The notes beneath the pieces are model-generated. The model did not search any database, was not told where the DNA came from, and worked only from the letters and a program-made list of their open reading frames with translations. From Chloroflexota bacterium (GTDB lineage: Bacteria > Chloroflexota > Anaerolineae > Anaerolineales > VGOW01): 64,000 nucleotides of DNA. Where the stretch lies: positions 1-64,000 of the forward strand of contig JACPWC010000126.1 of the NCBI GenBank assembly GCA_016197225.1. Reading direction: 5' to 3'. A program made the position numbers and the translations under genes. Numbering within the stretch: position 1 is the stretch's first letter; every line of letters starts with the position of its first letter. Positions 28,740-61,994 of this stretch are shown here, in pieces.

Positions 28740-28782
28740 AGTGGCTGTCCCTGGGCCGCAAGCGGCCCAGTGACAGTCACCT
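28740..28782. repeat. GTGACTGTCACTGG-type palindrome, copy 1
   Basis: Arms at 28741-28759 and 28762-28780 pair with two mismatches. The sequence CAGTGACAGTCACCT is shared with the element at 63140-63203. It fills the gap between the eutQ-like stop and the STAND gene start. Confidence 0.7.
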
Positions 28783-29303
28783 CAAGCCCAATCTGCTGGG
28801 AAGGTGACGTAGAAGAAGCGGACTCCGCCGGGCGTGCCGAAGGTGATAGTGGAGCCTTTGGGAATGAAGATGCAGTCGCCCGGCCCGCCGCGCACGCGCT
28901 CGCCCCCGCGGGTGATCACCAGCTCACCTTCCAGCACAACGTCAACTTCATCATAGTTCAATGTCCACGGAAACTCGCCGCGCTCCAGCGACATGTAGCC
29001 GGCTCCCATCGGCGAGCCGTTGCCTGAGGTGATCACGTCTCGGAGACGGGTGTTGGCCGAGGCGCCCGGCTCGAACGCCTCCAGCACCACGTTCGCGCCG
29101 CGAACAACTTTGAGCGGCGGCAGGGTTGCGGGCGCGGGAGCATTGCTCGCGGCCTCTTCGCGCCGAATTTGCACGCCAAGCTCGCGGGCCACGTCCTGCG
29201 CCTCAGGCGTGATCAGATCGTCGGGGGCCACGATCAGCAAATTGGATTTTTGATCGTTGGCGAGGCGGCGGATGTCGGAGGCAGTGAAGAGTTGACGAGT
29301 CAT
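28782..29303 (-). CDS. eutQ: EutQ-like cupin (ethanolamine utilisation)
   Basis: A 173-residue protein. The start MTRQLFTASDIRRLA and the cupin half (LRDVITSGNGSPMGAGYMSL, then VDVVLEGELVITRGGE and PGDCIFIPKGSTITFGTPG) match EutQ. Published work on Salmonella assigns EutQ an acetate kinase activity in ethanolamine breakdown. The ATG at 29303 follows the stop of the receiver-cyclase by two bases, so they form one transcript. It lies about 21 kb from the main eut cluster and outside its operon, which is unusual. Confidence 0.85.
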   Translation of the reverse strand: MTRQLFTASDIRRLANDQKSNLLIVAPDDLITPEAQDVARELGVQIRREEAASNAPAPATLPPLKVVRGANVVLEAFEPGASANTRLRDVITSGNGSPMGAGYMSLERGEFPWTLNYDEVDVVLEGELVITRGGERVRGGPGDCIFIPKGSTITFGTPGGVRFFYVTFPADWA

Positions 29304-50330: not shown

Positions 50331-50648
50331 TTATTTGCCCTTGCCGCCAAAACTGCCTTTGGTGTTTTGGGGCAGGATCATTTCCACGTCGGAGTGGGGG
50401 CGGGGGATGACGTGGACGGAGACGAGTTCGCCGACGCGCTTGGCGGCGGCGGCCCCGGCGTCGGTGGCGGCTTTGACCGCGCCCACGTCGCCGCGCACCA
50501 TCACCGTCACGAATCCGCCGCCTACGTATTCACTGCCAATGAGGGTGACGTTGGCGGCTTTGACCATCGCATCCGCGGCTTCCACTGCGCCGATCAGGCC
50601 TTTGGTCTCGACCATTCCTAAAGCAATCATTGCGACATCTACGGGCAT
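50331..50648 (-). CDS. eutM: Bacterial microcompartment shell protein, single BMC domain (EutM type)
   Basis: A 105-residue hexamer-forming shell protein. It reads [60 protein letters not shown] and [18 protein letters not shown], the classic BMC fold of EutM/PduA. A short Gly/Lys tail follows. It is the last gene of the eut run, 86 bases after eutL, with a perfect 18-bp hairpin between them. Confidence 0.95.
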
Positions 50649-50734: not shown

Positions 50735-51391
50735 CTAATACTTGATCGGGTCTCTCGCCACTTCCAGCACCGTTTCGCGGAAGGCGACGGTGGCGGCTTT
50801 GCAGGCCGGTTGATCGCCGGTGAGCATGACGCCCATGTAGTTCGTCTCGGAGGGCGGCATGGTAAGGGCGACGATGCGCACGGCGGCGGCCTTGAGGGCG
50901 GCGTCGAGGGCGTACACACCCTCGAGCGGCGGCGCGATGAGGTAAGCGATCGGGTCGCCGAGCGGGATGTTGCACACTTTAGAAAGATAAGTGCCGGTGC
51001 GCGAGATGAGATGCGGGAAGAAGGCAATTGAAGCATCTTCGTTGGCCGAATACCAGATGGCCTCATTCTTCATGTAGCTCAGGGCGGCGCTCAGTCCGGC
51101 GCGGACTTCGGCGGGGTTGGGGCCGGCAATGACGGCCAGAATCTCGCCCGACAGCAAACCCGACGCATGTTTGGCTCCGGCGTAGAACGAGCGGGCGTAC
51201 ACCACTTCCACATCGGCCATTTTGGTAGCTTCGTCAACCGAGACGTAAGTGGCGTCGTCGTTGTCGGCCGTGATCAAGCCGATGGATTTTTGCTCCGGCC
51301 TGAGCTTCAACTGCTCGGCGAAGTTCGGGTCAACGTTCGGGATCATGCGAACGGCGAGAGGGGTGGCGTAGATGGGATCGAGAACGGCCAT
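50735..51391 (-). CDS. eutL: Microcompartment shell protein EutL (tandem BMC)
   Basis: A 218-residue trimer-forming shell protein. Its start (AVLDPIYATPLAVRMIPNVD), KSIGLITADNDDATYVSVDE, VEVVYARSFYAGAKHASGLLS and YLIAPPLEGVYALDAALKAA match EutL, whose circularly permuted BMC repeats form a gated pore. The TAG stop is created by sequence of the adjoining palindromic element. The next upstream gene is eutC, 268 bases away with a gene remnant between. Confidence 0.95.
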   Translation of the reverse strand: MAVLDPIYATPLAVRMIPNVDPNFAEQLKLRPEQKSIGLITADNDDATYVSVDEATKMADVEVVYARSFYAGAKHASGLLSGEILAVIAGPNPAEVRAGLSAALSYMKNEAIWYSANEDASIAFFPHLISRTGTYLSKVCNIPLGDPIAYLIAPPLEGVYALDAALKAAAVRIVALTMPPSETNYMGVMLTGDQPACKAATVAFRETVLEVARDPIKY

Positions 51392-51659: not shown

Positions 51660-52583
51660 CTATTTCGCCGCCAGCTTCAACTTCACCCCGCTGGCCTGAT
51701 GCTTGATCATCTTTTGCGCGATCTGGATGGTGAAGGCCGCGCCTTCGAGCGGATTGGTGCCGCCGTTGTTGAAGATGTTGCACACCACGTCGCGGTCGGC
51801 GTCGGTGTCGCCGCCTTTTGGACGATAAGCCATGTAGGCGCTCAACGACTCGGCCCGGCCCAGGCCGGGGCGCTCGCCGATGAGCAGAATGACCACATCC
51901 GGCTTGAGCAGGTCGCCGATGTCGTTCAGCACGCCCACCCGGCAATATTTGATGAAGAACGGCGTGCCGACCGTCAGCCCGGCAGACTTCGCGCCCTGCA
52001 TGATGACCGGGAACATTTCACGGGCGTTGGCTTCCACCGCCGCCGCGCTCAACCCGTCGCCGACGACGAGTTGAATGTTGGGCGACTTGGCGCACTTTTC
52101 ACTGATTGCTTTTTTCGCCTCATCACTCAACTGTCGCCCTAAGTCTGGTCTCAGCAAATACTCCTGCTTGCCGCCCGTGATGTTGGTTTGCACGGTGAAC
52201 AGGCCCAGGTCGTCGAGCAGTTTCTGATCGACGTCGCGCATTAGGGCATCCTGGGTGATGGCATGGTCGCCCTGAAAGAGCAGGAGCGAGAAGGTGTTGT
52301 AGTGCGGTCCGGCGCGGCCCACGCCAATTCGAGACGTCGTCGAAGCGATGAGAGCCTTGACAGCGTCGGCGTCTTTTGGATTCTTGACTCGCGGCTTGTA
52401 GCGATGTTCGGGCAGGGTGGGATCGGGAAGATCGATGTTGAGACTTGCCGCCGAGGGCTGTCGAGAAGGGGACGCCGCCACTGGAGGGGCGGTTTCCGCT
52501 GAGGCGGGCGGCGTTGCAACTTTGGCCGCCGCCAGTTCTTTGACAACGGCTTCGATGATGGCGTTCAGTTGGGCTTCATCCAT
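51660..52583 (-). CDS. eutC: Ethanolamine ammonia-lyase small subunit
   Basis: The light chain of the B12-dependent lyase that splits ethanolamine into acetaldehyde and ammonia. It has 307 residues. The first 20 (MDEAQLNAIIEAVVKELAAA) form an amphipathic helix followed by an Ala/Pro linker, which fits a microcompartment encapsulation peptide (inference). The catalytic part has RIGVGRAGPHYNT, LVVGDGLSAAAVEANA, VILLIGERPGLGRAESLSAY and NIFNNGGTNPLEGA. The ATG at 52583 overlaps the end of the coiled-coil gene by 8 bases. Confidence 0.96.
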   Translation of the reverse strand: MDEAQLNAIIEAVVKELAAAKVATPPASAETAPPVAASPSRQPSAASLNIDLPDPTLPEHRYKPRVKNPKDADAVKALIASTTSRIGVGRAGPHYNTFSLLLFQGDHAITQDALMRDVDQKLLDDLGLFTVQTNITGGKQEYLLRPDLGRQLSDEAKKAISEKCAKSPNIQLVVGDGLSAAAVEANAREMFPVIMQGAKSAGLTVGTPFFIKYCRVGVLNDIGDLLKPDVVILLIGERPGLGRAESLSAYMAYRPKGGDTDADRDVVCNIFNNGGTNPLEGAAFTIQIAQKMIKHQASGVKLKLAAK

Positions 52584-52971
52584 GGCGGGCGGCCTCCAGT
52601 TGCGCAACGCGGGCTTCAAGTTCTTCTATTCGTTCTTGCAGAGTTATTTGATCGACACGATGTCTTTTGGTGGTAACGGTCAGTTCGGCAATGTTATCGC
52701 TAGTCTTTTCCAGGCGGCTAAAAGCGTTTCCCACATCGTTTTTCAGAAGTCTCGTCGCTTCTTCCAGTTTGGCGACACGGGCTTCCAAAGCAGTGATGCG
52801 TTGGTTGATCTGGCGGAATTCTTGTTGAATGAGCGCGGCCTGATGGTCGAAAGCGGCATCAAGCTTTTCGTCAGTAACAGTCTTTGCCAGACGGGCCTCA
52901 ACAGGCGCGAGCGCTTCCTGAATTACTTCGCGCACAACCTTTCTAATTTCATTCTGGTTTTGTGTTTCCAT
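52576..52971 (-). CDS. Coiled-coil protein encoded between eutB and eutC
   Basis: A 131-residue, wholly helical protein. The first helix (NEIRKVVREVIQEALAPVEA) is amphipathic and resembles microcompartment-targeting helices. Heptad-rich segments follow: QQEFRQINQRITALEARVAK near 50-70 and LQERIEELEARVAQLEAA near the end, with a middle part (SRLEKTSDNIAEL). I do not recognise a family. It starts in the eutB stop (TGATG) and overlaps eutC by 8 bases, so all three are translationally coupled. eutB and eutC are normally adjacent. A lumen scaffold or lyase-clustering role is possible but unproven. Confidence 0.8.
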   Translation of the reverse strand: METQNQNEIRKVVREVIQEALAPVEARLAKTVTDEKLDAAFDHQAALIQQEFRQINQRITALEARVAKLEEATRLLKNDVGNAFSRLEKTSDNIAELTVTTKRHRVDQITLQERIEELEARVAQLEAARHG

Positions 52972-54341
52972 CACTGCCTCTTCAAAAAGAACGTCGGGTC
53001 TCCCGCCTTCTCAGTCAGCACCCCGTTCTTCATCAGGCCGATGTCTACCATCCAGGCTTCGAACTCGGGCGCGGGGCGCAGGCCGAAGAGTTGACGCAAA
53101 GTCGGGGCGTCGTGGTAGCTAGTGCATTGGTAGGAGAGCATCGAGTCGTCGCCCATCGGCACGCCCATGAAGTAGTTGCAACCGGCGGCGGTGAGCATCA
53201 CCGCCAGGTTCTCGATGGCGTTCTGGTCGGCGCGGGCGTGGTTGGTGTAGCAGGCGTCAACGCCCATCGGGATGCCGGTCAGCTTGCCCATGAAGTGATC
53301 TTCGAGACCGGCGCGCTGAATCTGGCGGGCGTCGTAGAGATATTCGGGGCCGATGAAGCCGACGACGGTGTTGACCTGATAAGGATGCCAACGTTTGGCG
53401 AGGCCGTAATTGCGGGCCTCGAGGGTGAGTTGATCCCAGCCGTTGTGCGCTTCAGCCGAGAGGGCCGAGCCTTGCCCGGTTTCAAAATACATGAAGTTGG
53501 GGCCGGCGGGGAAGCAATATTTTTTGGCGAGAGCGTAAGCTTCATCCAACATGCCGACGGAGATGCCGAAGGAGTCGTTGCCCTTCTGCGACCCGGCGAT
53601 GGATTGAAAGACCAGGCCGACCGGCGAGCCGGATTGCAGGCATTTCATCTGGGTGGTGACGTGAGAGAGGACACAGTTCTGGGTCGGAATGTTCCACGTC
53701 TTGATCACGTCGTAAGTCATGTCGAGCAGGCGGGCGACGGAGCCGTACGAGTCGTCCACGGGGTTGATGCCGATGACCGAGTCGCCGGAGCCGTAAGACA
53801 GGCCCTCGTAAATTTCGGCGCGGATACCTTCGGGCGAGTCGGTGGGGTGGTTGGGCTGGTTGCGGCTGGAGAGCGTGCCGGGCGCGCCGATGGTGTTGGC
53901 GCAGTGGGCGGTGCGCGGAATCTTTTTGGCGCAATACATCAAGTCCAGGTTGGACATGAGTTTGGTGACGGCAGAGATCATTTCGGCGGTGAGGCCGGTG
54001 GAGAGGCGCTGGATCATGCCGCTGGTGGTGGTGTCGGCCAGAAGCCATTCGCGCAGTTGCCCCACCGTCCAATCCTTGATCTCGTTGTAGGATGTTTCGT
54101 TCACGGCGTCCTGAATCACCCGCGTGACTTCATCTTGATCGTAAGGGACAGCCGGGTTTTCGCGCAAGACCTGCAGTGGCACTTCGGCCAGAACGAAACG
54201 AGCGGCCACCCGCTCGGCGGTCGTCTCGGCGGCCACCCCGGCCAGCCGGTCACCGCTCTTTTCCTCGTTGGCCTTGCCCATGAGGAGACGGATGTCGGGG
54301 AATTCGTAAGTCTTGCCGTGAAGTTTGGTGCGAAGGAGCAT
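52971..54341 (-). CDS. eutB: Ethanolamine ammonia-lyase large subunit
   Basis: The catalytic chain of the adenosylcobalamin-dependent lyase. Its 456 residues match the E. coli length of about 453. It shows the TIM-barrel pattern of EutB: LSTGLTAEMISAVTKLMSN, YEGLSYGSGDSVIGINPVDD, ETGQGSALSAEAHNGWDQ, and a C-terminal AAGCNYFMGVPMGDDSMLSY. It is coupled to the coiled-coil gene through TGATG. No B12 riboswitch is apparent upstream. Confidence 0.97.
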   Translation of the reverse strand: MLLRTKLHGKTYEFPDIRLLMGKANEEKSGDRLAGVAAETTAERVAARFVLAEVPLQVLRENPAVPYDQDEVTRVIQDAVNETSYNEIKDWTVGQLREWLLADTTTSGMIQRLSTGLTAEMISAVTKLMSNLDLMYCAKKIPRTAHCANTIGAPGTLSSRNQPNHPTDSPEGIRAEIYEGLSYGSGDSVIGINPVDDSYGSVARLLDMTYDVIKTWNIPTQNCVLSHVTTQMKCLQSGSPVGLVFQSIAGSQKGNDSFGISVGMLDEAYALAKKYCFPAGPNFMYFETGQGSALSAEAHNGWDQLTLEARNYGLAKRWHPYQVNTVVGFIGPEYLYDARQIQRAGLEDHFMGKLTGIPMGVDACYTNHARADQNAIENLAVMLTAAGCNYFMGVPMGDDSMLSYQCTSYHDAPTLRQLFGLRPAPEFEAWMVDIGLMKNGVLTEKAGDPTFFLKRQ

Positions 54342-54481: not shown

Positions 54482-55735
54482 CTACAAGTTTACGCGCAAA
54501 CTCAAGGCCTCGCCGCCTGGCTGGGCGTCTTTCACCCACTCGCCGGAAAAGCGCATGGACTCGTTGACGATCAGGTGGCGGAACGTTTGAGTGTGCAAGA
54601 GACGTTCGCCCTGATAGACTTGCACCTGAGCCTCACGGCGAAATTCGCGGGCGCGGAAAAGGAAACTGCTTGAAGGCGAATCGGCGGCCACGATGTTGGG
54701 GGACACCCACGCAAGAGGCGGCTCCACCTGAAGCGACAGGCCGTGTTCCGGCCACTGTCCGCCGCGCAGGAATTGGGCGATATGATGCGCGGCGCGTCTG
54801 CCCTCCAACGCGGCCCAGTCCGCTGTCTCCGCGCCGCGCAGGAGGTTGCCCGCCGCAAACACGCCGCGCTTGGACGTATGAAATGCGCCGTCAATCTGTG
54901 GCCCGCGCGTCCCCGGATCCATTTCCAGGCCGCCGAGGCGGGCGGTTTCGTGTTCCGGAATCCAGTCCCCGGTAAAAACGACGGTGTCACAGTCAATCCT
55001 TTCGATGCGGCCCGAGTCGAGATGGGTGAGTTCGATGCCCTCGACGCGCTTGTAGCCGATGATGTTGCTCACCTTCGCGCGCGGCACAACCGGCGTGCGC
55101 GTGAGCAGGTCGGCCAACAACCACTTCATGGGCCGATACGGAAAATAGAGTTGAGGCTCAGGCAGTTCCGTGACCATCATGGCAACCGGAATCTTTATGC
55201 TCGTCAGAGTCATCAAAGCTGAAAGACTGACCAACTCCGCGCCGACGATGACCGCCCGCCGCCCGACTCCGGCGCTGCCGAGATGATGCTCGTGGGCAAA
55301 GCGCTGCAACGAGCCGGTGGTGAACACGCCCGCTGGCCGACTGCCCGGAACCAGCCGCGCCGAGCGCGGGCGCTCGCGACAGCCTGTGGCGAGCAACACG
55401 GCGCGGGCTTCAATCTCGCCCAGGCCCTGTGGGCTGGTGAACGACAGCCTGTTTGGCCCCTGCCAGCCAGTGAGGGTAGTGTTAGTGTAAACAGGGACGC
55501 CCGCCTCTTGCACCAGACGATGATAGCGTCTTGCATAATCGGGACCGGAGAGGAGGAGGCGCAGATCGCGCAGGCCAAAGCCGATGTGATGACACAATCG
55601 CGGGATGCCGCCAGCTTCCGGCTCACGGTCGGCCACGACAACATCGCCCACGCCGAGTCGCTTCAACTCAATAGCCGCCGCCAGCCCGGCCGGGCCGGCG
55701 CCGACAATGAGGACTTCGGCGTGCTCAGGCAACAT
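54482..55735 (-). CDS. FAD-dependent oxidoreductase, partner of the GlpA-like dehydrogenase
   Basis: A 417-residue two-dinucleotide-fold flavoprotein: VLIVGAGPAGLAAAIELKRL for FAD near the start, AVLLATGCRERP, RAVIVGAELVSLSALM near 165, and TSKRGVFAAGNLLRGAETAD. This type recurs beside glpK and glpA-like genes in other bacteria, often with a third DUF1667 gene that is absent here. It probably passes electrons from glycerol-3-phosphate oxidation to NAD or another carrier (inference). Its start overlaps the previous gene by 11 bases. Confidence 0.88.
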   Translation of the reverse strand: MLPEHAEVLIVGAGPAGLAAAIELKRLGVGDVVVADREPEAGGIPRLCHHIGFGLRDLRLLLSGPDYARRYHRLVQEAGVPVYTNTTLTGWQGPNRLSFTSPQGLGEIEARAVLLATGCRERPRSARLVPGSRPAGVFTTGSLQRFAHEHHLGSAGVGRRAVIVGAELVSLSALMTLTSIKIPVAMMVTELPEPQLYFPYRPMKWLLADLLTRTPVVPRAKVSNIIGYKRVEGIELTHLDSGRIERIDCDTVVFTGDWIPEHETARLGGLEMDPGTRGPQIDGAFHTSKRGVFAAGNLLRGAETADWAALEGRRAAHHIAQFLRGGQWPEHGLSLQVEPPLAWVSPNIVAADSPSSSFLFRAREFRREAQVQVYQGERLLHTQTFRHLIVNESMRFSGEWVKDAQPGGEALSLRVNL

Positions 55736-57137
55736 GATCCTGCTCCAGCATCATCAGTTGGCTCGGATTTTGATTCGTTTCACGCGCCAACAATGACACG
55801 ACTGCGCCGTGACAGTTGAAACCCTGACAACGCCCTTGCAGAACACGGGTGCGCCGCCTCAAGCCGTCCACCGTTCGCGCTGGAATAACCGTTCGAGTCG
55901 CGGCCAGAATTTCGCCAAGCGTCACACGCTCGCAATGGCAAACAATCTGACCATAGGTTGGGTTGGCCGCGATCATCTCGGCTGATTGATACGGGCGCGT
56001 GGCTGCTTCGCCAATGTTCGGCATGCGAATTGATTTGAATTGCAGCTTGGGCTTCAATGTAAGCCCTGCCTCTTGCAGAAGTCCGGCCACATATTCCGCG
56101 ATGCCGAGTGAGGCCGACACGCCCGTGGAGCGGATGCCGCCCACGCACACGTAGCGTTGTCCGGCGTGCAACCGAATTTGATAGTCGCTATGCTCGGTGG
56201 CGGCGCGCAGTCCGGCGTAAGTAGCCGTCACTTCTTCGTTCAGCAACTCAGGTAGAATGGCCCGGCCTTTCTCCAACAACGTCTGCAAGCCGCTGGCGCT
56301 TGTGCTTGTGGCGGTCTTGTCGGGCAGGTCTTCGGCAGTAGGGCCGAGCAGAACGTTGCCGTACACGGTTGGGCTGATGAGGACGCCTTTGGTTTTGGCA
56401 GTAGGGACAGGCAACAAAATGTGATTGATCAGCGAGCGGGCGAATTTGTCGAAGACGATCAGCTCGCCCCGGCGCGGAGTGACGATGAAATCATGATGAC
56501 CCAGCAGGCGATCAATCTCATCTGAATAGAGTCCGGCGGCGTTGATGATCCAGCGGCACTCGACACTGCCGCCCGGCCCGCCGAGGACGTGGAAGCCGTC
56601 TCGTGACTGGATGGCCTTCACCGAATGATTCAGTTTGAGTGTTATGCCGTTGACAACGGCTTGGGTGGCGCAAGCCAGCGGAACGGTGTAGGTGCAAAGC
56701 ACGTGCTCACCAGGGACAAGCATGCCGCCCAGCGCGCCGGGGCCGAGGCGAGGTTCAAGGCGGTAGACTTCGTCGGCGGCAATTAAATATACGTCGGCGA
56801 CCCCGTTTTGTTTGGCTTTATCGAGCAGGGCGGGCAGAGTCGCAAGTTGCTCTTCGCTCCAGGCGATCAGCAATCCGCCCGTGCGCTCAATGGGAATGCC
56901 GGCCTCGGGCGCAAACTGCTCCATGAGGGCGTAACTGCGGCGCATGAGCCGCGCTTCGAGCGAGCCGGGCTTGGCGTCAAAGCCGGTGTGCCAGATGGCA
57001 GTGCTGGCTTTGGACGTGCCCATGCCCACGTCGGGCGCGGCTTCGAGGAGGGCAATGTTTAGTTCGTAACGGGAAAGTTCGCGGGCAATCGCCGAGCCAA
57101 CTGCGCCCCCGCCGATGACGGCGACATCGTAGATCAT
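55725..57137 (-). CDS. GlpA-like glycerol-3-phosphate dehydrogenase with [2Fe-2S] domain
   Basis: A 470-residue FAD protein of the DAO fold. It begins MIYDVAVIGGGAVGSAIARE and has IINAAGLYSDEIDRLLG, RRGELIVFDKFARSLINHIL, YAGLRAATEHSDYQIR and CVGGIRSTGVSASLGIAEYV. A C-terminal BFD-like domain carries four cysteines in IVCHCERVTLGEI and GRCQGFNCHGAV for an iron-sulphur cluster, as in anaerobic GlpA. The ATG at 57137 overlaps the stop of the kinase gene (ATGA). With its neighbours it would oxidise glycerol-3-phosphate to dihydroxyacetone phosphate. Confidence 0.88.
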   Translation of the reverse strand: MIYDVAVIGGGAVGSAIARELSRYELNIALLEAAPDVGMGTSKASTAIWHTGFDAKPGSLEARLMRRSYALMEQFAPEAGIPIERTGGLLIAWSEEQLATLPALLDKAKQNGVADVYLIAADEVYRLEPRLGPGALGGMLVPGEHVLCTYTVPLACATQAVVNGITLKLNHSVKAIQSRDGFHVLGGPGGSVECRWIINAAGLYSDEIDRLLGHHDFIVTPRRGELIVFDKFARSLINHILLPVPTAKTKGVLISPTVYGNVLLGPTAEDLPDKTATSTSASGLQTLLEKGRAILPELLNEEVTATYAGLRAATEHSDYQIRLHAGQRYVCVGGIRSTGVSASLGIAEYVAGLLQEAGLTLKPKLQFKSIRMPNIGEAATRPYQSAEMIAANPTYGQIVCHCERVTLGEILAATRTVIPARTVDGLRRRTRVLQGRCQGFNCHGAVVSLLARETNQNPSQLMMLEQDHVA

Positions 57138-58606
57138 GCCCAACCGTGATAGCGCCCGAGGGCCGCCAGCGCCTTTCCCCATCGTTCCAGCCGTCGCTGA
57201 CGTTCACCGTCGTCTATTTTTGGGCGATACACCGCCTCGGCCTGCCAGCGGGCGGCCAGCTCTTCGAGTGAGAGGCCGAGGGCCGAATGCCCGGCCAGGT
57301 TGGCAATGCCAATGGCCGTCGCTTCACGGGCGGCAGACACGCGGACTTCGAGGTTCAACAAGTCGGCGATGGCCTGCATGAGATACGGATTGCCCGACGG
57401 GCCGCCATCTACTTTAAGATGTGCCGGCGACTGACCCGCGTCCTGGGCCATGGCCGTCACCACTTCGTAAACGCGGCAGGCGATGCCATCGAGGGTGGCG
57501 CGGGCGATGTCGGCGGGCGCCGTTCCACGGCTGAGACCGAAGATCGCGCCGCGAGCATCGGCCCGCCAGTGCGGGGCGGCTAAACCCTGCAAGGACGGCA
57601 CAAAGACAACGTCAGAGTCTGTGGATTGAGAGGCGGCCTCGGCGCTGGCGGCTACGTTCGGCAGGAGGCGCAGGCTTTCGGCGATCCACTGCACCGCCGA
57701 GCCGGTGACAAAGATGCCGCCGTCGAAGGCGTAGGCCGTCTGGTCGCCGAAGCGCCAGGCGACGGTGGTGAGCAGGCCGTTGTTCGAGAGGCGCATCTCG
57801 CCGCCGATGTTCATGAGCAGGAAACTGCCGGTGCCAAAGGTGCATTTCATCTCGCCGGGCTTGAAGCATGCTTGGCCGAACAACGCCGCCTGCTGGTCAA
57901 CAAGCAGAGCGTGCAATGGCAAAGGTTTGCCGACGCCAAAATCAAGATCGCCTGCGTGCCCCGCCGAGGGGACTACTTTGGGCAAGATGGATCGGTTAGC
58001 GCCGAAGAGCGAAAGCAGATCGTCATCCCAGTCAAAACGATTGGCGTCGAACAACAGGGTGCGTGAGGCGGTGGAGGGATCGGTGAGGTGCAATTTGCCG
58101 CCGCTGAGATTCCAAATCACCCAGGTCTCGGTGGTGCCAAAGCGGGCGCGGCCACTTTGCACAGCGTCGCGCAAGGCCGGGTCTTGTTCCAGGGCATAAC
58201 GCAATTTGGGCGCAGAAAAATAACTGTCGAGGAGCAGGCCGGTCTTGCGGCGCAGGGCGTTGTGATCAACCTGACTGGCGATGGCTTCGCATACCGAGAC
58301 GCCGCGCTTGTCCTGCCAGACGATGGCCGGGGTGAGGGGCTGGCCGGTGTCGGCGTCCCAGACGACGAATGTTTCGCCCTGGTTGTCAAAGCCGACGGCG
58401 GCAATTTCGTATTTTTCAATCAGTGGCGCGACGGCTTCGCGCACCGTCCTCACAATATCGTCCGGCTCTTGTTCCACCCAGCCCGGTTGCGGGAAGCGGG
58501 CGGGCAATTGCACCGAGTTCTTGGCGACGAGGCGGCCAGTGTCAGAAGCGACGAGGACGGCGGTGGTTTGGGTGGTGCCCTGGTCAATGCCGAGAAGGTG
58601 GGGCAT
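57134..58606 (-). CDS. glpK: FGGY-family glycerol kinase
   Basis: A 490-residue sugar kinase-fold protein. It has LGIDQGTTQTTAVLVASDTG, GWVEQEPDDIVRTVREAV, VGFDNQGETFVVWDADTGQP, FGTGSFLLMNIG and KVDGGPSGNPYLMQAIADLL, which fit glycerol kinase. Glycerol kinases usually read NQRET; here it is NQGET, so substrate preference may differ. The GlpA-like neighbour supports glycerol. The ATG at 58606 lacks a clear ribosome binding site and is preceded by a palindromic element. Confidence 0.85.
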   Translation of the reverse strand: MPHLLGIDQGTTQTTAVLVASDTGRLVAKNSVQLPARFPQPGWVEQEPDDIVRTVREAVAPLIEKYEIAAVGFDNQGETFVVWDADTGQPLTPAIVWQDKRGVSVCEAIASQVDHNALRRKTGLLLDSYFSAPKLRYALEQDPALRDAVQSGRARFGTTETWVIWNLSGGKLHLTDPSTASRTLLFDANRFDWDDDLLSLFGANRSILPKVVPSAGHAGDLDFGVGKPLPLHALLVDQQAALFGQACFKPGEMKCTFGTGSFLLMNIGGEMRLSNNGLLTTVAWRFGDQTAYAFDGGIFVTGSAVQWIAESLRLLPNVAASAEAASQSTDSDVVFVPSLQGLAAPHWRADARGAIFGLSRGTAPADIARATLDGIACRVYEVVTAMAQDAGQSPAHLKVDGGPSGNPYLMQAIADLLNLEVRVSAAREATAIGIANLAGHSALGLSLEELAARWQAEAVYRPKIDDGERQRRLERWGKALAALGRYHGWA

Positions 58607-58615
58607 GGAATAAAA

Positions 58616-58672
58616 AGAGGATTGGAGAATCAGAGAATTGGTTGACGCCAATCCTCAATTCTCCAATCCTCT
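58616..58672. repeat. ATTGGAG/ATTAGAG hairpin, copy 2 (permease-glpK)
   Basis: Fifteen-base outer arms (58616-58630 and 58658-58672) are exact complements. An inner ATTGG-TTGACG-CCAAT hairpin sits in the loop. It fills most of the gap before glpK. Confidence 0.8.
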
Positions 58673-60554: not shown

Positions 60555-61994
60555 CTAATGATAGAAAATCAACGTCTTCACGCTCAACGGCACTACCCGC
60601 CCGTCCATCATCGGCGCACCCACGTCAATGTAGTCGCCCTCCTGCAGGCCCACCTGGTCAATCACCAGCAGGGGCCGGTCGGGGGCCATGGCCTTCACCG
60701 TCTGGCCCAGCGCCTGGGCGTAATCGTGCTCAATAATAGCCACCAGCGGGCGGCCTTCAGGCAGAGTCCGGGCGAACTCGGCCAGGCCGGTGGCAAGCTG
60801 GAGAAGCAGGGAATAATTTAGCGATTGATCCAGTTCGAGGGCGACGGCAAAATTGTCCGTAGCCGGATTCACGTCCCAGCGGCGAACGGCGTCGGCAATG
60901 GAGGCCGCCATTTGTAGGGGCGGCATCCCGGTGTTCATCACCGGCCTGATCACCGGCAGGTTCTTCATCGGCAAAATCTCGCGCTCGGCCCAGATCGTCG
61001 AACCGGACAGGGTGACGGTTTGCGAACTTGCGCCCAGCACGGTAGCCCTCAGCGTCTCTGCCGGTTTGACCGTCTCGTACGTTTTGATCACCGGGTGCTC
61101 GCGCAGCGACTCGGCCAACAGCGGCCCCACGTCGTCGTGGAGGGTGGCGTCGTCAACCGAGCGAATCGAAATCGGGCTGTAAAAGTAATGGCCGATGCCG
61201 CCCGACAGCATGAGCACCGTGCCTTTGCCGGAGACGGGCGCGGGCGGGGTGAGATACAGCTTTTGGGCCAGAGGCGACCCCGTTCCTTCGATCAGCTCGA
61301 CAGTGAGATCGGCCATGCGGTCGGTGAAGCGTTTCAAGTCGGCCAGCGACGGCGCACTCCCCGTGACCAATCTCAAACCACAGTCTTCCAGAATGTGCTT
61401 TGCCGGTTCGGCGATGTGCCGCACCCGGCCCGTGCTGTGCTCAACTTCCAGGATGCGCCCGCCGTAGTTCATGGCCGCCGCCGCCACCAGCGCCCCGGCG
61501 TTGAACAGGGCCGAGTTGGCGCTCCCGCCGCCAATATCAATGCTGATTACTTTGCAGAAGTGTCGTTTGGAATAATCGGTTGCGCCCGCGCCGCGCCCGG
61601 CGATAAGCGACTCCAGATGCGGCCCGGCCACTGTCACCACAAACTCGCCGGCCAGCCCGCCCAGCCCGCGCAAAATTTCGTCGGCGTTCTTCTTCTTGGC
61701 CGTCTCGCCGGTGATGATGACGGCGCCGGTTTCGATCTGTTTTGGGTCAACGCCTGCCGCCGCATACTCGCGCTTCACCAGGTCGGTCAGGCGGACTACA
61801 TCAATCGTCTCGCGGTCGGCCAGTGGAGTAAAAGTAATTGGGGATTGGTAGATGACGGATTTGTCGGTGATGCCGATGCGTGGAATCTGGCCGGGGCGCG
61901 AGGTGTCGGCGAGGATGAGGCGCGAGAAGACGAGTTGCGTCGTCGTCGTGCCAACGTCAATGCCAACGCTGAGGACGGAACGGGAGTCGGGCAT
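60555..61994 (-). CDS. eutA: Ethanolamine ammonia-lyase reactivating factor EutA
   Basis: An ATP-dependent factor that swaps damaged cobalamin out of the lyase. Its 479 residues start with an actin-like fold: SVGIDVGTTTTQLVFSRL, VIITGETAKKKNADEILRGL, VISIDIGGGSANSALFNAG and VLMLSGGIGHYFYSPI. The C-terminal half (PLVAIIEHDYAQALGQTVKA, DYIDVGAPMMDGRVVPLSVK) is typical of EutA. It is upstream of the permease, rather than next to eutB as in enterics. Confidence 0.95.
   Translation of the reverse strand: MPDSRSVLSVGIDVGTTTTQLVFSRLILADTSRPGQIPRIGITDKSVIYQSPITFTPLADRETIDVVRLTDLVKREYAAAGVDPKQIETGAVIITGETAKKKNADEILRGLGGLAGEFVVTVAGPHLESLIAGRGAGATDYSKRHFCKVISIDIGGGSANSALFNAGALVAAAAMNYGGRILEVEHSTGRVRHIAEPAKHILEDCGLRLVTGSAPSLADLKRFTDRMADLTVELIEGTGSPLAQKLYLTPPAPVSGKGTVLMLSGGIGHYFYSPISIRSVDDATLHDDVGPLLAESLREHPVIKTYETVKPAETLRATVLGASSQTVTLSGSTIWAEREILPMKNLPVIRPVMNTGMPPLQMAASIADAVRRWDVNPATDNFAVALELDQSLNYSLLLQLATGLAEFARTLPEGRPLVAIIEHDYAQALGQTVKAMAPDRPLLVIDQVGLQEGDYIDVGAPMMDGRVVPLSVKTLIFYH

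Follow-up and report, generated by a model that had tools for sequence, protein, structure and literature searches.

The eutB-eutC junction

The window analysed here comprises bases 1-64000 of contig C126 from a genome (G000) of 4.8 Mb in 126 contigs. It carries genes of ethanolamine utilisation and, between the genes for the two subunits of ethanolamine ammonia-lyase, the vitamin B12-dependent enzyme that degrades ethanolamine, a gene for a coiled-coil protein (P0001).

28782..29303, minus strand: EutQ (cupin; PF06249), without the H3/H4 stretch of the E. coli type
50331..50648, minus strand: EutM-like BMC-H shell protein (NF012018, 134.5 bits against a cut-off of 133)
50735..51391, minus strand: EutL, BMC-T shell protein (TIGR04502, 1.2e-95)
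51660..52583, minus strand: eutC, small subunit (PF05985, 7e-74; NF003971)
52576..52971, minus strand: coiled-coil gene, 131 aa, with homologues at the same place in the relatives G003 and G044
52971..54341, minus strand: eutB, ethanolamine ammonia-lyase large subunit (PF06751, 7.6e-207; NF011649)
60555..61994, minus strand: EutA, lyase reactivase (PF06277, 3.3e-161)

The initial annotation described an open reading frame (ORF) of 131 residues that starts in the eutB stop and overlaps eutC, which the coordinates confirm. The ATG of the coil gene at 52971 has one base in common with the eutB stop (TGATG; GGCAGTGATGG), with a Shine-Dalgarno-like AGAGG just 5' of it. Its own stop lies 8 nt inside eutC (ATGGATGA), giving an 8-nt overlap with the eutC start, and the GGAGG of eutC sits within the last codons of the coil gene.

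Further along, between eutB and a permease, two FAD oxidoreductases, one of which carries a BFD [2Fe-2S] domain, and an FGGY kinase are encoded at 54482-58651, a set that resembles glycerol-3-phosphate metabolism. The corresponding loci of G003 and G044 do not have these genes.

The coil ORF as a protein gene

An antisense ORF of 225 aa (52417-53094, plus strand) is also open across the coil gene, so it could be argued that the coil ORF is no gene and arises only from the antisense frame or from base composition. We regard this as barely credible, and the comparison with the G003 copy largely refutes it. The two proteins aligned with a score of 154, against a maximum of 38.5 in 500 shuffles (z = 15) and a score of 71 for the open antisense frame. 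The other two sense frames contain 5 and 9 stops (6 and 9 in G003). Over 131 aligned codons, the two copies differ at 71, 41 and 71 first, second and third codon positions, respectively, and different codons are used at 24 of the 48 identical residues. Judged from these substitutions, which are of the protein type, the coil ORF is a genuine protein gene with constrained second codon positions; the non-protein codon pattern that, according to the initial annotation, would speak against the gene was not seen.

The protein is 30% identical to its G003 homologue, compared with 92% for EutB and 83% for EutC. The codon composition of the coil gene is also unlike that of its neighbours, since its GC3 is 0.47 while that of eutB is 0.81 and that of eutC 0.76.

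Distribution among relatives

EutC was found in 44 of 400 genomes of the order, 40 of which have a readable eutB-eutC junction; the other four (G322, G292, G037 and G049) were unreadable because of contig ends or because the genes were split or far apart. Four readable junctions have a coil ORF, three of them in one genus, g1 (G000, G003 and G044), and one in another family (G069). It is absent from the remaining 36, where the junction measures 79-225 nt in eight and at most about 41 nt in 28. Two of the three other eutBC-bearing congeners therefore have a homologue at the same place, which answers the proposal to look for the gene in related genomes and the concern that it might be missing from every other eutBC locus of the lineage. 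In the fourth eutBC-bearing congener, G017, 3 nt separate eutB and eutC, and the fifth congener, G031, gave no EutC match. Among the 44 named loci, the ORF was found only in the same three relatives (G003, G044 and G069). In a phylum-level sample of 11 more distant EutC loci, the junction was no longer than about 100 nt in ten; in the remaining one (L153) it spans up to 193 nt.

In a FastTree phylogeny of EutB and EutC (43 rows), all g1 genomes in the tree fall into one clade of four (0.98) that consists of G017 with G044 (0.93) and G000 with G003 (0.99), and G069 falls elsewhere. The simplest reading of this tree is that the coil gene was present in the g1 ancestor and was then lost in G017.

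The homologue in G003 (VGOW01000063.1, a Chloroflexi MAG) has 164 aa; its last seven residues, LEAARHG, are those of the G000 protein, and both genomes have GGAGGCCGCCCGCCATGGATGA where eutC begins. The relative in G044 (CAKKQG010000323.1, Anaerolineales) is longer and was read in two parts because a run of N interrupts the sequence. At this locus (L054:4173-5008), 13-residue repeats (LATREELQKAIAP) flank the assembly gap, which suggests that the repeat length of the coil varies.

The coil-type ORF of G069 encodes 78 aa and comes from a genome with a contamination value of 10. In blastp, it matched the G000 protein over 25 residues inside the coil (1.2e-4). Its homology is nevertheless unproven, because a profile of the three congeners' coil proteins, searched against the 400 genomes of the order, did not recover it. 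The same search returned G000, G003 and G044 together with four weak matches (1.4e-6 to 7.1e-5) in ORFs of 328-1099 aa, which were read as generic coils, and a search of the genome contigs with P0001 alone gave 352 pattern matches, none of them confirmed. The coil sequences thus number four in total, the G069 copy being of unproven homology and the close relatives being MAGs.

Other genes were also observed around this junction. Unrelated insertions between eutB and eutC occur at L082, L086, L087 and L089 (HNH-, PIN-, methyltransferase-like and others, named by eye), and in two congeners AbrB-like and PIN-like toxin-antitoxin genes, likewise identified by eye, immediately precede eutB.

L034:14833-15594 and L035:5175-6284: toxin-antitoxin-like genes upstream of eutB in the G003 and G044 loci

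The distribution bears on two alternative explanations. The main rival is that the coil protein is a partner specific to the lyase, an accessory subunit or assembly factor in direct contact with EutB/EutC, in which case its first helix, which resembles an encapsulation peptide (EP), would merely follow the complex into the organelle or mimic the EutC helix. The gene sits exactly between the lyase genes and overlaps both in G000, with small spacers or overlaps on either side in G003, G044 and G069, as a lyase partner would lead one to expect; as the EutA reactivase is already encoded, reactivation is probably not the job of the coil. However, 36 of the 40 readable junctions do without it, that of the congener G017 among them, and the coil evolves much faster than EutB and EutC, unlike a subunit with a fixed interface. 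We hold this explanation to be rather unlikely.

Alternatively, the ORF could have landed at a permissive junction with little functional demand on it. The unrelated HNH-, PIN- and methyltransferase-like genes or the 79-225 nt without a coil ORF in other relatives, the low GC3 and the absence from G017 all speak for such an insertion. It appears improbable nonetheless, since three congeners, from either side of the genus tree, have retained the protein, with constrained second codon positions, an EP-like N-terminus, embedded overlaps and seven identical C-terminal residues in G000 and G003.

Protein anatomy

Three helical stretches are relevant to the comparison of the coil protein with EutC.

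52582..52872, minus strand: long helix, residues 34-130, with canonical heptads at about residues 36-84 and weaker ones beyond
52906..52956, minus strand: EP-like helix, residues 6-22, QNEIRKVVREVIQEALA, scoring 14.0 with the RpiB-EP profile and lying inside the first modelled helix
52527..52577, minus strand: EutC N-terminal EP, residues 3-19, with a motif present in 34 of 34 EutC N-termini read

The helical nature of the protein, put forward in the initial annotation, agrees with its AF2 model (a single chain, from a three-row alignment), which has helices at residues 2-31 and 34-130 with a mean pLDDT of 88.6 and block means of 92-98 for residues 41-130. At about residues 36-84, I/L/M/V/F/Y/W occupy 75-88% of the a/d heptad positions and 5-10% of the others, and the first 35 or so residues contain no heptads. 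P0001 is therefore modelled as an N-terminal helix, a break and a canonical coiled coil. The 78-aa G069 protein, folded without an alignment, gave the same layout (helix 3-20, break, helix 26-65), with five residues between the first helix and the coil compared with two in G000.

Searches of the coil proteins against Pfam and NCBIfam gave generic coil matches below threshold. Membership of DUF7310 (PF23991) was rejected, as the scores of 30.3 bits (G000), 28.6 (G003) and 17.7 (G069) lie under the curated cut-off of 40, and this match is one of generic coil resemblance. Three weak coil matches in a PDB sequence search (E 0.034-0.081) were read as chance.

The first helix as a putative encapsulation peptide

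In Salmonella, the N-terminus of EutC has been proven to act as an EP (PMC12487888). In this lineage, the motif h-x-x-h-h-x-x-h-h-x-x-h is common to the 34 EutC N-termini (29 distinct as 16-mers). In the distant loci of the phylum sample, EutC showed no EP-like stretch at the N-terminus where the start was found.

EP profiles were built class by class, including 16 distinct RpiB EPs from relatives in the same order and 14 distinct DeoC EPs. The RpiB profile was adopted because the EutC-EP profile was weak: it placed the N-terminal windows first in G000, G003 and G069, at scores far below the EutC self-scores, and in G044 an internal window outranked the N-terminus. With the RpiB profile, the coil helix QNEIRKVVREVIQEALA scored 14.0, which none of 18,729 control windows from ORFs of the same 64,000-base stretch reached. 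The EutC EPs scored from -3.1 to 22.9 (median 9.2) and the DeoC EPs from -4.5 to 12.3 (median 2.2), which places the helix of the coil protein among the values seen for genuine EPs of other enzymes. When the scan was widened to 75,640 windows in 241 ORFs, it was the top non-training window, ranking after an RpiB training sequence and ahead of a DeoC EP (12.3) and an internal chance window (11.8); the lineage's own tags scored lower (DeoC 12.3 and 8.6, EutC 9.2 and 8.0).

In all four coil proteins the top RpiB-profile window starts at residue 6. The scores of the relatives were 1.7 (G044), 1.6 (G069) and -1.3 (G003), values reached by 22, 23 and 71 of the 18,729 control windows, respectively. 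With the DeoC or the pooled profile, the N-terminal helix was not the top window in every coil protein, and an internal G044 window scored 8.4. By these profile scores, there is good support for an EP-like first helix in G000 and modest support in G003, G044 and G069. The suggestion that the first helix looks like an encapsulation peptide has thus held up for G000, with a different model, as the helix is closer to the RpiB tag (e.g. DNEIRQIVQNVVRNMTG) than to the EutC tag to which it had been likened.

Genomic setting

The BMC vertex genes of G000 are on other contigs, C58 and C64. On C58, RpiB (PF02502) and DeoC (TIGR00126), both with N-terminal EPs, precede the vertex gene, DeoC directly. 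EUT modules, consisting of EutA/B/C and EutL, are reported to occur as satellites of SPU loci (PMC8217296). G000 has EutA/B/C and a BMC-T of the EutL type at a distance from the main BMC locus, as in an EUT module, and an EP-bearing DeoC-type aldolase and RpiB-type isomerase beside BMC genes, as in an SPU-type BMC. By this analogy, the locus resembles the EUT module satellite of an SPU-type microcompartment described there. In G017, the EUT module and the SPU enzymes occur without the coil gene, which makes the coil gene dispensable.

A protein of 99 aa that resembles the N-terminal part of EutQ, with H3/H4-type helices, is encoded next to the C64 shell genes (BMC-T/vertex) of the main locus.

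L138:8285-8581, L140:5881-6180 and L142:8968-9243: EutQ-N-like small proteins beside main-locus BMC genes

In a single BLASTP comparison it matched E. coli EutQ with E = 0.009; it had no BLASTP match to the EutQ of the window and matched no Pfam family. The sequences suggest that the EutQ of the lineage and this separate protein are perhaps a split adaptor. The idea that the coil protein substitutes for the missing EutQ H3/H4 was rejected as the main reading. Of 17 EutQ ORFs judged by eye, most have a short linker (L121 and perhaps L125 are longer), those of coil-less relatives such as G017 among them, and the 99-aa protein carries such helices. With PF00936 (cut-off 24.5), a nearby BMC-T-like protein of 209 aa (L138:8666-9295) reaches only 19.7 bits, which means that the standard model can overlook shell genes of this lineage.

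A possible role in cargo capture

The reading we favour, tentatively and at slightly less than even confidence, is that P0001 is an EP-tagged, non-enzymatic coiled-coil organiser of cargo for an EUT module feeding an SPU microcompartment, co-translated with the lyase. The coil would oligomerise and display several EP helices together, and these could join an EP-driven co-aggregate of EutC, DeoC and RpiB as well as the EP-binding shell adaptor. The lyase, whose genes are remote from the main organelle locus, might thereby be captured efficiently, and the overlaps with eutB and eutC would hold the three proteins in proportion. The EutC EP has been reported to be needed for EutBC assembly and to bind H3/H4 of EutQ (PMC12487888), and to drive condensation (PMC12339742), while EPs co-aggregate different cargos and self-associate by coiled-coil interaction according to PMC7221423.

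This organiser role is favoured by the high EP score of the G000 helix, the common start of the top window at residue 6, the layout of helix, break and coil in G000 and G069, the homologues between eutB and eutC in G003 and G044, and the EP-bearing DeoC and RpiB of G000 together with the published EUT satellites of SPU loci. It is opposed by the weak EP scores of the three relatives, the disagreement between profiles, the absence of the gene from G017 and the poor sequence conservation (30% to G003). It is very unlikely, in our view, that the protein is instead a decoy or timing factor, which would adjust the moment of lyase packing by capping the EutC tags or by rivalling them for the EP-binding adaptor. 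Such competition is conceivable for a non-enzymatic protein with a free EP, and an adaptor-like protein of the EutQ-N type, with 99 aa, is encoded at the main locus; however, production in proportion to the lyase suits a scaffold equally well.

A further proposal, which we consider unlikely, is that at least two lineages, genus g1 and the family of G069, independently placed an EP-tagged coil gene between eutB and eutC as a dedicated capture device, by which a satellite enzyme could enter an organelle that serves another pathway. If true, such hubs of EP and coil, without enzymatic activity, would add a new class to the assembly factors of microcompartments.

These questions bear on how a microcompartment takes up enzymes whose genes lie away from its main locus. 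The attachment of EUT modules to SPU organelles is a published case of such an extension (PMC8217296). For the capture step, a small EP-bearing coiled-coil protein made alongside the lyase would be a candidate. An EP joined to a coil would also be a natural tag-plus-oligomer part for engineering. Even as a mere lyase partner, P0001 would be a protein of the ethanolamine operon that has apparently not been described before: no report of a coiled-coil or hypothetical gene with eutB and eutC was found in the open-licence literature, the supplements of PMC8217296 aside.

Comparison with known systems

The locus shares with the published EUT satellites of SPU/HO loci the position of EutA/B/C and EutL apart from the main DeoC-type aldolase/RpiB locus (PMC8217296). 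The section of that paper on EUT modules mentions no extra gene between eutB and eutC, and, unlike the satellite it describes, the window also has an EutM-like BMC-H.

The helical N-terminal adaptor region of Salmonella EutQ, which mediates the association of shell and cargo (PMC12487888), is comparable to P0001 in being helical. EutQ differs in that it binds EPs with H3/H4, whereas P0001 seems to carry one, and P0001 was unmatched by PF06249, the EutQ family, among the families shown; in addition to P0001, G000 has both EutQ and the separate protein that resembles the adaptor.

Known EP-tagged cargos (EutC, EutE, PduP and PduD, and here DeoC and RpiB) have, like P0001, a short N-terminal amphipathic helix before a separate domain, with paired hydrophobic residues and two polar residues between the pairs. 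In the named cargos that domain is an enzyme, whereas the rest of P0001 is coiled coil only. EP tags are characteristically terminal helices of 15-20 residues, joined to the cargo domain through a flexible linker of low conservation; the break after the first helix is only two residues long in P0001 and five in the G069 protein. In its layout, P0001 is also like CcmN, the cargo-shell linker of the beta-carboxysome (PMC12339742), a scaffold-side protein with an EP at one end. This likeness is one of layout and not of sequence comparison, and the EP of CcmN is C-terminal, whereas the EP-like helix of P0001 is N-terminal.
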